Shown here piece by piece: positions 19,243 to 32,317 of a DNA stretch of 64,000 nt. Both the position numbers and the translations under genes were made by a program. Origin of the DNA: Egibacteraceae bacterium (GTDB taxonomy: Bacteria > Actinomycetota > Nitriliruptoria > Euzebyales > Egibacteraceae); assembly GCA_030446745.1 (NCBI GenBank), contig JAUJMS010000001.1, forward strand, positions 163,107 to 227,106, written 5' to 3'. Under the pieces are notes generated by a model. The model was not told the origin of the DNA and ran no database searches. It saw only the letters and a program-made list of their open reading frames with translations. Numbering within the stretch: the first letter of the stretch is position 1; each line of letters opens with the position of its first letter.

Positions 19243-20886
19243 ATGACTGCTGCCGGGGCGCTTGCGGGCGGGCGTGAACGTCGCTTCGACCTCGTCGTCG
19301 TGGGTGCGGGGGTGGCCGGTTTCGTCGCGGCCCTCGACCTCGTCGCGGCGGTGCCGTCGGCTCGGGTTGCCGTGGTCGACAAAGGCGCCATCGGCACCTC
19401 CGGGTCGACGCCCCTCGCGCAGGGCGGCATGGCCGCGGCCGTCGCCGCGGACGACTCCCCCGCGCTGCACGCCGAGGACACCGTGCGCGCCGGCGACGGC
19501 TTGTGCGACCCACGCGCGGTGGCAGTGATGGTGAGTGAAGGCCCGGCTCGCGTCGCTGACCTCGTCGCCCGCGGTGCGGTGTTCGACCGCCACGTCGACG
19601 GCACGCTCGACGTCGCGCGCGAGGGCGGCCAACGCGTCGCGCGCAGCGTCCGTGCCGCCGACGCGACCGGCGCGGAGATCTTCCGCGTCCTGCGGGCCGC
19701 GGCCGGCCCGTCGGTGACCCGGGTCCAGGGGGCGGCGTGCGGGCTGGCGACGGCCGGCGACGACGGGCACGCCGCCGGGGTGTGGGTGTTGCTCGACGAC
19801 GTCGACGCCTCGCCGGCCGGCGCCCCCCAGTCGGCGGGACTCGCGCTGCTGCGCGCCCCGGCGGTGCTGCTGGCGACCGGCGGCTGCGGCGGCCTGTACG
19901 CGGCGACGACCAACCCCGACGGCGCGACGGCCGACGGCGTCGCGTTGGCCTACCGGGCGGGCGCCGTGCTCGTCGACCTCGAGTTCGTGCAGTTCCATCC
20001 GACCGGGCTGCGTGTCGACCACCCGGGCGGCTTCCAGCGCCTGCTGCTGACCGAGGCGCTGCGCGGCGCCGGGGCGCGCCTGGTCGACGCCGACGGTCGG
20101 CGGTTCATGCCGCAACGCCACCCGGATGCCGAGCTGGCGCCGCGCCACATCGTCACCAAGGGGATCCTCGACCAGCCCGGCGGCGCGTGGCTCGACGCGA
20201 CCGGGATCCCTGCGGCCACGCTGGCCGCCGAGTTCCCGACGGTTGCGGCGGGCGTGGCGCGCCACGGCTTCGACCTCGCGCGTGAACCGGTACCCGTCGA
20301 GCCGGTGCAGCACTACATGATCGGCGGCGTGGCGACCGACCTCGACGGTCGCACGTCCGGGCCGGGGCTGTACGCCGCCGGTTAGGTCGCGTGCACCGGC
20401 GTCCACGGTGCCAACCGCATGGCCGGCAACTCGCTGCTGCAGGCGTGCGTGTTCGGCTCGCGCGCCGCCGCCGCGGTGGCGGCGGCACGCGCGACCGCGG
20501 CCCGGCGCGCGGACGCGGGGCGCGACGGCGACCTGACCCCGCCCGACCTGGGCAACGCACCGCGTGCCGCCGCGGACGCCGTGCGCGCGGACCTGCGCGT
20601 CGCCATGTCCGCCGGCGCGGGACCCATCCGCAGCGCCGATGGGCTCGACGCCGCCGACAAGGCGCTGGACGGCGTCGACGCGTCGCTTGGCGACGTGTCG
20701 GCGGCGACGCGCGACGACCTCGAGCTGCACCACGCCGCCGCGGTGGCGCGGTTGCTCGTGCGCAGCGCCCGCCTGCGCGACGAGTCGCGCGGAGCGCACT
20801 GGCGCGACGACGCGCCGGATCGCGCCGCGCGGTGGGACGGCGTGCGGCTGCGCGTCCAGGTGACCGCCCAAGCGCCACGGCGATGA
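19243..20886 (+). pseudogene. nadB: L-aspartate oxidase, interrupted by in-frame TAG at 20383-20385
   Basis: FDLVVVGAGVAG...QGGMAAAV...FVQFHPTGL...[37 protein letters not shown]...; same frame on both sides of the stop. Confidence 0.9.
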
Positions 20887-26447: not shown

Positions 26448-27953
26448 TCACCGAGCGTTGTCGACGTCAGGAGGGTCGCCGAGGAGACGAGCCGCCCCGG
26501 TGGCGGGATCGGCGACAAGCACACGGTGGTTGCCGGTGTCCACGACGACGACCTTGCCGTCGAGCCAGGCGACGGCCTCCGGCTCGCGCAACGCGGCGGC
26601 GCCCCGCAGGTCGACGGGTACCTCGCAGCGGTGCTCGAGGCGCGCCAGCGCCGCGTCGAACGGCGTGCCGTCGCCGAACAGCGTGGTGACGGCGCCCGTG
26701 GCCACCTCGACCGTCTTGACCTTGTGGTTGAGGGTGTCGGCGAGCAGCAGGGTGCCCGGCTCGCCCGCGGCGACGCCGACCGGGTGCTGCAGCCGCACGT
26801 CGTCGCCGACGCCGTCGCGGTCCCCGAACGCGAACAGGTCGCCCCCGGCGATGGTGGAAACCCGACCCGCGGCGACGCGGCGCACCGACGACGTCTCGCT
26901 GTCGGCGACGTACAGGGCGGAGTCCTCGCCGGTGCCCCACGCCAGGCCTGACGGCTGACCGAACGCCGCGGCCTCGAGCATCCCGTCGACGCGGGCCTCG
27001 CGCCCGCTGCCGGCGTAGCGCGCGGCCACGCCGTCGGCGACCGTCCACAGCTGGTGGCTGCCCGCCATCGCCACGACGACGCGACCGTCGGGCTCGACCG
27101 CGACGTCCCACGGTGACCGCAGCGCCGTGGCGAGCGCCGGTCCGCCGGCGATCGCGCCGCGCCCGCGCCGCCCGGTCCCCGCGAGCGTCCGCACGGTGCC
27201 GCTGCGCAGGTCGACCGCGCGCACGGCGTGGTTGCCGGTGTCGGCGACGACGAGGGTCCGACCGGCGACGGTCACGCCGTGCGGGTAGGTGAACCGCGCG
27301 GCGGCCGTGCCGTCGACCAGTCCGGGCGCCCCGCAGCCGAAGCGCCGCAGCTCACGCCCGCCGGCGTCGTAGGCGACGACCTGGTGGTGGCCGGTGTCGG
27401 CGACGTAGACGGTCGCACCGTCGACGGCGATGCCGCCCGGGTACGCGAGGCCGCCGGGCGCAGGCCGCTCGGGCGCGAGCGGCAGCGGCGCGTCGCGCGT
27501 CAGGGAGCGTTGGCGGTCCAGGATCTCTCGGAGCGTCGCGAGCAGCGGCTCGCGGTCCGGTTCGCCGCCGGCGGCCCCGACGATGACGCCGTCGGCGCCG
27601 ACGACGACGAGCGTCGGCCACGCCCGCACGCCGTACTCGCTCCAGATCCGATGCCCGGCGTCGACGACGACCGGGTGGGTCACCCCGTGGCGCAGCACCG
27701 CCTCACGCACGAGGTCGGCGTCGCCCTCGGTCGGGAACTTCGGGGAGTGCACACCGACGACGACGACGGGCTCGTCGGCCAGTTCCTGCTCGACCGCCGC
27801 CAGCACGGGCAGCGTATGGAGGCAGTTGACTCAGGCGTAGGTCCAGAAGTCGAGGACCACGACCTTGCCGCGCAGGTCCGCCGCGGTCAGCGGCCGCAGC
27901 ACGTTGAGCCAGACCGCGTCGGTCGGCAGGGCGGGAGCGTGGATGGTCACCAT
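26448..27953 (-). CDS. NHLRC2-like thioredoxin-fold/NHL-repeat protein; candidate selenoprotein with in-frame TGA (27831-27833) at the first Cys of CxxC
   Basis: MVTIHAPALPTDAVWLNVLRPLTAADLRGKVVVLDFWTYA-TGA-VNCLHTLPVLAAVEQELADEPVVVVGVHSPKFPTEGDADLVREAVLRHGVTHPVVVDAGHRIWSEYGVRAWPTLVVV..., then NHL repeats; same frame on both sides of the TGA. Confidence 0.85.
27795..27814 (-). promoter_or_regulatory. Candidate bacterial SECIS hairpin
   Basis: CGCUGCC-CGUGCU-GGCGGCG: 7-bp stem (one U-G), 6-nt loop with G at loop position 2; loop begins 23 nt after the TGA. Confidence 0.45.
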
Positions 27954-30102: not shown

Positions 30103-31581
30103 ATGACCGGCGCGTTCCGCGTCCCCGTCCCGACCAACGAGCCGGTCCGCGGCTACGCCCCCGGCAGTCCCGAGCGCGACAGCCTGACCGAACGCCTCAC
30201 CACGATGGCCAAGGAGCGCGTGGAGGCGCCGATGGTGATCGCCGGCCGCCGGGTCAGCAGCGACACGACGTTCCCGGTGACGGCCCCCCACCGCCACGAC
30301 CACGTTCTCGCCGACGTCCACACCGCCGGACGCGACCACGTCGACCAGGCGATCGCCGCGGCCTTGGGCGCGCGGCGCGACTGGGCGGCCACACCGTGGC
30401 CGGAGCGTGCGGCGGTGTTCCTGCGAGCCGCCGAGCTGCTCGCTGGGCCGTGGCGCGACACGCTGAACGTCGCGACGATGCTCGGCCAGTCCAAGACCGT
30501 GTACCAGGCGGAGATCGACGCCGCCTGCGAGCTCATCGACTTCTGGCGCTACAACGTCGCCTTTGCCGAGCGCATCCACGCCGAGCAGCCGGAGTCGGCC
30601 CCCGGCATGTGGAACCGGATGGACCACCGCCCGCTCGAGGGGTTCGTCCTGGCGCTGTGCCCGTTCAACTTCACGTCCATCGCCGCGAACCTGCCGACCG
30701 CCCCGGCACTGATGGGCAACGTCGTCGTGTGGAAGCCGTCGGAGAAGCAGGCGTTCGCGGCGCACTACACGATGGAGCTGCTCGAGGCCGCCGGCCTGCC
30801 CGACGGCGTCGTGAACCTCGTCCACGGCGACGGGGCGCTGGTGGCCGACGCGGCGATGGACTCGCCGCACTTCGCCGGGCTGCACTTCACCGGTTCGACC
30901 ACGGTGTTCCGCGCGCTGTGGCGGCGCGCCGCCGAAGGCCTCGACCGCTACGACGGCTACCCGCGGCTGGTCGGCGAGACCGGCGGCAAGGACTTCGTCG
31001 TCGCGCATCCGTCCGCACGTGTCGAGCCGCTCGTCGTGGCGCTCGCCCGTGGGGCCTTCGAGTACCAGGGCCAGAAGTGTTCCGCCGCGTCGCGGGCGTA
31101 CATCCCCCGCTCGCTGTGGCCGCGCGTTCGCGACGACCTCGCCGACCTCGCCGCTAAGCTTCCGATGGGCGACGTCGCCGACCTCGCGAACTTCATGGGC
31201 GCGGTGATCGACGAACGGGCGTACCGCCGGCTGACCGACGCCGTCGCCCAGGCGCGCGACTCCGGCGCGCACGTGCTGGCCGGGGGCGGAGGCGACGACC
31301 GCGAGGGCTGGTTCGTCGAGCCGACCGTGCTCGTCACCGACGACCCGCGCTCGGACACGATGACCCGCGAGCTGTTCGGGCCGGTGCTCACGGTCTACGT
31401 CTACGACGACGCTCGCTGGGACGACACCCTGCGCCTGGTCGACGAGTCGGCGCCGTACGCGCTGACCGGCGCGATCTTCGCCGACGACCGCGCGGCCGTC
31501 GACCACGCCTACACCGCACTGCGCAACGCCGCCGGCAACTTCTACGTCAACGACAAGCCGACCGGCGCGGTCGTCGGGCAG
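30103..31581 (+). pseudogene. pruA: 1-pyrroline-5-carboxylate dehydrogenase, truncated C-terminus
   Basis: ...VLALCPFNFTSIAANLPTAPALMGNVVVWKPSEKQ...GETGGKDFVVAHPSA...FEYQGQKCSAASRAYIP...NFYVNDKPTGAVVGQ, then homology stops before the expected QPFGGARASGTNDK tail. Confidence 0.9.
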
Positions 31582-32317
31582 CGCTTCCGGCCGCCGCGTC
31601 GTCGTCGCCGGCGGCGACGGCAGTGTCCACGCCGCGGTCGCCGTCCTGTGGGAGCGCGGGCGCGAAGCCTTGCGCGCCGTGGAGCTCGGTCTCGTCCCGC
31701 TCGGCACGGGCAACGACCTCGCGACGGGGCTCGCCCTGCCCGACGACCCGGCCGCCGCCGCGCGGGTGTGCCGGACCGGGCGCGTGCGCGAGCTCGACCT
31801 CATCGTCAGCAACCACGGCGACGTCGTCGTCAACGCGAGCCACGCCGGACTCGGCGCCGCCGCCGCGGAGCGCTCCGAGGGCCTGAAAGAGCGTCTCGGC
31901 CCGCTCGCGTACCCGGTCGGCGCGCTCATCGCTGGGGTGCGCGAGGCGGCCTGGGACCTGCGGATCACCGTCGACGGTCACGTCGTGCACGACGGCTCCA
32001 CCCTCATGGTCGGTGTCGCCAACGCCCCGTCGATCGGCGGCGGGACGCGCCTGGTCCCGCCTGCGCTGCCCGACGACGGGCAGCTCGACGTCATCGTCGT
32101 CACGGCGATCGGGCCGGCCGCGCGCCTGGCGTTCGGCGCGGCGCTGCGCGACGCCGCGCACCTCGACCGCGACGACGTCGTCCACGTCCGCGGGCGCGAG
32201 GTCACCATCGCCGGCGAGCCGGTCAGCCACGACCTCGACGGCGAGGTCACCGAGCACCGCTCCAGCTGCACCTACACCGTCGTACCCGGCGCCTGGCGGA
32301 TGGTCGTGCCGGCCTGA
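31580..32317 (+). pseudogene. Diacylglycerol/lipid kinase, N-terminus missing
   Basis: SASGRRVVVAGGDGSVHAAVAVLWE...VELGLVPLGTGNDLATGLALP...VANAPSIGGGTRLVPPALPDDGQLDV; begins inside the family at the GGDG motif. Confidence 0.82.

Follow-up and report, generated by a model that had tools for sequence, protein, structure and literature searches.

In the 64,000-nucleotide stretch of Egibacteraceae DNA analyzed here (the window), one minus-strand reading frame raises the question of whether an internal TGA breaks a gene or specifies selenocysteine (Sec). From the ATG at 27953, the frame runs for 40 codons, meets a TGA at 27833–27831 in the context FWTYA-*-VNC, its single internal stop, and then continues for 460 codons to the TGA at 26448. 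The initial annotation, made from the letters and open reading frames alone, had described a thioredoxin-fold, NHL-repeat protein of the NHLRC2 type with one in-frame TGA, a frame open beyond it for more than 450 codons, and the TGA at the first Cys of the family CxxC with the second Cys retained. All of this was borne out, the retained Cys by the TGC at 27824–27822 and the family by Pfam (NHL 4.4e-29 and Thioredoxin_8 1.1e-11 on the read-through translation) and a full-length structure match. The features of the gene are as follows:

26448–27953, minus strand: thioredoxin/NHL gene of a predicted selenoprotein, 501 codons with the UGA read as Sec, its own terminator TGA, under purifying selection before and after the internal TGA
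27831–27833, minus strand: putative Sec-UGA codon (residue 41), where the family motif CC(I/V)NC has its middle Cys; TGA in 11 genomes, TGC or TGT in 50 homologs
27822–27824, minus strand: partner Cys of the UxxC motif, residue 44, codon TGC, in a column invariant in a 34-homolog alignment
27507–27941, minus strand: thioredoxin-like domain, residues about 5–149, from Pfam, sequence and structure matches
26484–27461, minus strand: NHL-repeat beta-propeller, residues about 165–490, from Pfam, sequence and structure matches

The AlphaFold2 model of the read-through product has a mean pLDDT of 94 and a pTM of 0.92. ARAGORN also calls a tRNA-Arg at 27066–27152 on the minus strand, inside the NHL-repeat coding region, which is most likely a false call.

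The read-through protein is similar to human NHLRC2 (PDB 6GC1) over its full length (TM 0.91, 35% identity, 521 columns; sequence E 1.6e-86), and to the lumenal domains of Arabidopsis SOQ1 (PDB 7DJJ/7DJK; TM 0.92 to 7DJK; sequence E 6.9e-95). NHLRC2 and SOQ1 carry CC(I/V)NC at the same place, CCINC being residues 89–93 of human NHLRC2 (PMC6107167), whereas the window protein has Ala for the first Cys and would have Sec for the middle one; in the alignment to SOQ1, the window TGA falls on the second Cys of CCINC. The motif reads A-U-V-N-C in the window protein and C-U-INC or G-U-VNC in G102, a homolog from another class of the same phylum, and in the forms from a second phylum. With the TGA read as Sec, these motifs are the CC(I/V)NC motif with a predicted Sec replacing its middle Cys. 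The window protein stops after the propeller and lacks the C-terminal domain of human NHLRC2, which has been called non-conserved and therefore is not taken as defining the NHLRC2/SOQ1 family (PMC6107167). The HAD domain of plant SOQ1 is absent as well. A related thioredoxin-like domain is found at the C-terminus of Mycobacterium DipZ (PDB 2HYX, E 4.6e-21), but DipZ has no NHL propeller, and its motif is SCINC, with Cys where the window protein would have Sec (PMC6107167).

If the TGA were a true stop, the locus would encode a 40-residue peptide and a separate downstream protein starting from the GTG at 27806, where a mechanical open reading frame is indeed present. However, such a split would fall at the active site of the thioredoxin fold, every homolog conserves the two sides as a single protein, and the stop is always TGA: among confirmed homologs, only TGA, Cys codons and one Glu occur at this position, never TAA or TAG. 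We therefore consider termination at this codon to be extremely improbable.

The search of relatives proposed in the initial annotation returned TGA or Cys at exactly the Sec codon, with TGA in 10 other genomes from two phyla. Four are from the window's phylum, namely G004, G005 and G009, which represent two further genera within the window's family (70, 64, and 71% identity to the window gene, respectively), and G102 (54%). The remaining six (G425, G440, G461, G555, G624, and G704) are from a second phylum, that of a Planctomycetia MAG. A Cys codon (TGC or TGT) occupies the position in 50 compared homologs. The single Glu is found in a Planctomycetia MAG (L026, SXXH01000028.1; FWTGGEIAC), whose homolog clusters with two Sec forms in the tree and whose genome has a tRNA-Sec.

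This distribution bears on a caveat of the initial annotation, according to which the TGA could be a G-to-T error from TGC. More generally, TGC might have become TGA in a Cys-type gene through a recent nonsense mutation or through an error in sequencing or assembly, and other lesions are indeed present in the window, namely a TAG in nadB (20383–20385) and an aldehyde dehydrogenase frameshift near 31570. Against this, ten other assemblies, drawn from two phyla, share the TGA at this codon, and purifying selection acts on the sequence beyond it, with dN/dS of about 0.27 (0.23/0.84) between the window gene (G000) and G004, the clearest pair, and 0.34 (0.21/0.62) between the window gene and G009. 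TGA conservation and dN/dS contradict the caveat, and we rejected error or pseudogene formation as highly unlikely.

The nadB change had been cited in the initial annotation as damage of a like kind; the lesion is real, but it is of a different sort. The gene (19285–20862, plus strand) is broken by a TAG at a position where the homolog in G010 has Glu (AAGEVAS), and since this stop is TAG rather than TGA, nadB is not a Sec candidate. The aldehyde dehydrogenase frame (30103, plus strand) has an apparent frameshift at about 31570–31600, departing from the G010 homolog right after PTGAVVGQ and running from there into arginine-rich sequence. The UGA-type copies of the thioredoxin/NHL gene in the draft genomes G005 (L084) and G009 (L021/L085) also have frame breaks elsewhere in their sequence, which may be draft errors or decay.

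Decoding a UGA as Sec depends on dedicated machinery, and the check for selA, selB, selC, and selD suggested in the initial annotation found all four in the host genome, a 2.7 Mb draft that is 85.5% complete. The tRNA-Sec scores 70.9 bits and has the anticodon UCA, SelA (E 1.1e-108) is encoded next to SelB, and SelD was identified with an E of 2.6e-110. SelD itself has an in-frame UGA at its known Sec site (HGAG-UGA-ACK), thus serving as an internal positive control, so that the reading of UGA as Sec is very likely in this host. Formate dehydrogenase did not provide a second control, as the sole Molybdopterin-family match in the host has no internal stop. A tRNA-Sec was present in all five UGA genomes tested, which are all from the window's phylum. 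Its presence was rejected as a discriminator of Sec and Cys forms, since most Cys-form genomes also have a tRNA-Sec, and only G010 is telling.

Downstream of the UGA lies a hairpin that may act as a bacterial Sec insertion element (bSECIS):

27795–27814, minus strand: candidate bSECIS hairpin, stem CGCUGCC/GGCGGCG, loop CGUGCU, loop start 23 nt after the UGA

The published bSECIS model has G in the first two loop positions, a loop of 3–9 nt, a stem of 4–16 bp, a spacing of 16–37 nt, and an MFE of at most −7.5 (PMC13188914). The window hairpin, with a 7 bp stem, G then U at loop positions 2–3, and an MFE of −17.5 to −20.9 for the 45–60 nt from the UGA, agrees with this model as printed, and on the SECIS point raised in the initial annotation this comparison came out in favor of a Sec codon. 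The loop CGUGCU is identical in all five UGA genes of the window's phylum (window, G004, G005, G009, and G102), with at most one of the seven pairs broken; four of the seven are broken in the Cys-type G010, and its loop is different. Likeness at four-fold sites is 0.83 in the hairpin stretch vs. 0.47 in the remaining gene. Compared with synonymous shuffles, the folding energy is only mildly better in most single genes (z −0.7 for the window gene), and the UGA and Cys groups differ in hairpin folding energy with a Mann-Whitney p of 0.0013 that is not corrected for kinship. No support from covariation was found in the hairpin, for which this measure is uninformative because the paired positions barely vary in the compared genes. 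At the equivalent place, the hairpins of the second-phylum TGA genes differ in sequence. That of G461 is a good fit to the model (stem of 7 bp, loop AGUUG, spacing of 25), and a simple model-fitting hairpin was not found in some of the others. The codon at U+9, within the hairpin loop, encodes Val in 5/5 Sec genes of the window's phylum and in 0/50 Cys rows of the tree set; Val as a unique mark of Sec forms was nevertheless rejected, since Tistrella mobilis carries it together with Cys.

The hairpin and the host machinery also bear on whether the UGA might instead be read as Cys or Trp, whether by near-cognate read-through or with the help of a suppressor tRNA. In favor of this reading, most homologs have Cys at position 41, and tRNA-Cys(UCA) variants are known. 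However, all components of the Sec system are encoded in the host, whose SelD itself contains a UGA; the gene also terminates with TGA; a SECIS-like hairpin follows the UGA; and no tRNA-Sec is detectable in G010, the genome that holds the Cys ortholog. Taken together, we give insertion of Cys or Trp very little credence.

The gene thus almost certainly encodes an NHLRC2/SOQ1-family selenoprotein, in which the UGA at 27833–27831 would be decoded as Sec by the host SelB and tRNA-Sec under direction of the hairpin, because of the position of the UGA, its conservation, the decoding machinery, the hairpin, and the signature of selection. The proposal of the initial annotation, a selenoprotein and UxxC oxidoreductase of the NHLRC2 type, is likewise supported by TGA in relatives, the host Sec system, and the hairpin. 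Neither result that would have counted against it, close relatives uniformly carrying Cys or a host devoid of Sec machinery, was seen.

On a tree of 62 homologs, Sec rows appear in three places, and well-supported branches force at least four changes between the Sec and Cys labels. The Cys-type G010 is nested in the Sec group of its family (SH-aLRT 88% for its placement), and its ortholog lies at the same locus as the window gene, with the same mutM and aldehyde dehydrogenase neighbors. No tRNA-Sec was found in the G010 genome, which is 93% complete. The position of G010 would fit a reversion of Sec to Cys accompanied by loss of the Sec system.

As for mechanism, we infer that the UxxC pair may consist of Sec41 and Cys44, located in the cleft that faces the propeller, between the two domains. 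The selenol of Sec41 would be the attacking nucleophile and Cys44 would resolve the selenenyl-sulfide, while the propeller might hold the substrate during the reaction. Several forms have Ala or Gly instead of the first Cys of CCINC, which is therefore dispensable in them. Disulfide reductase activity is not assured, given that human NHLRC2 showed none when assayed for insulin reduction (PMC6107167).

Among the 119 prokaryotic selenoprotein families catalogued in May 2026, the main text names none of the NHL type, although some overlap is possible with the row "Redoxin family, UxxC" (representative HEU0032618.1), which was compared by its description (PMC13188914). The catalogued UxxC thioredoxin-fold selenoproteins ("Redoxin family protein" PF08534, apparently the "Prx-like 3" of GOS, "Thiol-disulfide isomerase-like," and UGC-containing TlpA) have Sec at the first CxxC position, as the window protein would; however, their main-text descriptions include no NHL propeller, which the window protein has. 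Among shorter, TlpA-like matches from the window's phylum, G192, G173, G111, G098, G251, G371, G185, G292, and G422 have an in-frame TGA; most are about 330 amino acids long, and they are possibly catalogued UGC-type selenoproteins. No selenoprotein model in NCBIfam (June 2026) accepts the window protein, which reaches 36.6 bits against NF041054 (WAxxUGC selenoprotein), below the curated cut-off of 300. Our literature search found no paper relevantly linking NHL or NHLRC2 proteins with selenoproteins. We consider it probable that the Sec forms of NHLRC2/SOQ1 constitute an uncatalogued selenoprotein family, which spans two or more phyla, has exchanged Sec and Cys repeatedly, and would mark Cys90 of human NHLRC2, the middle Cys of CCINC, as the redox nucleophile.

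NHLRC2 is an essential human protein that is mutated in FINCA disease, and SOQ1 controls photoprotection in plants. The redox activity of the SOQ1 thioredoxin-like domain "remains to be determined" (PMC10173003). The Sec position likely marks one particular Cys of NHLRC2 and SOQ1 as the redox nucleophile, and a natural Sec at that Cys argues for selenol/thiol chemistry by this residue in bacteria. Further, intermediates of the Sec form, once trapped, could identify the substrate.
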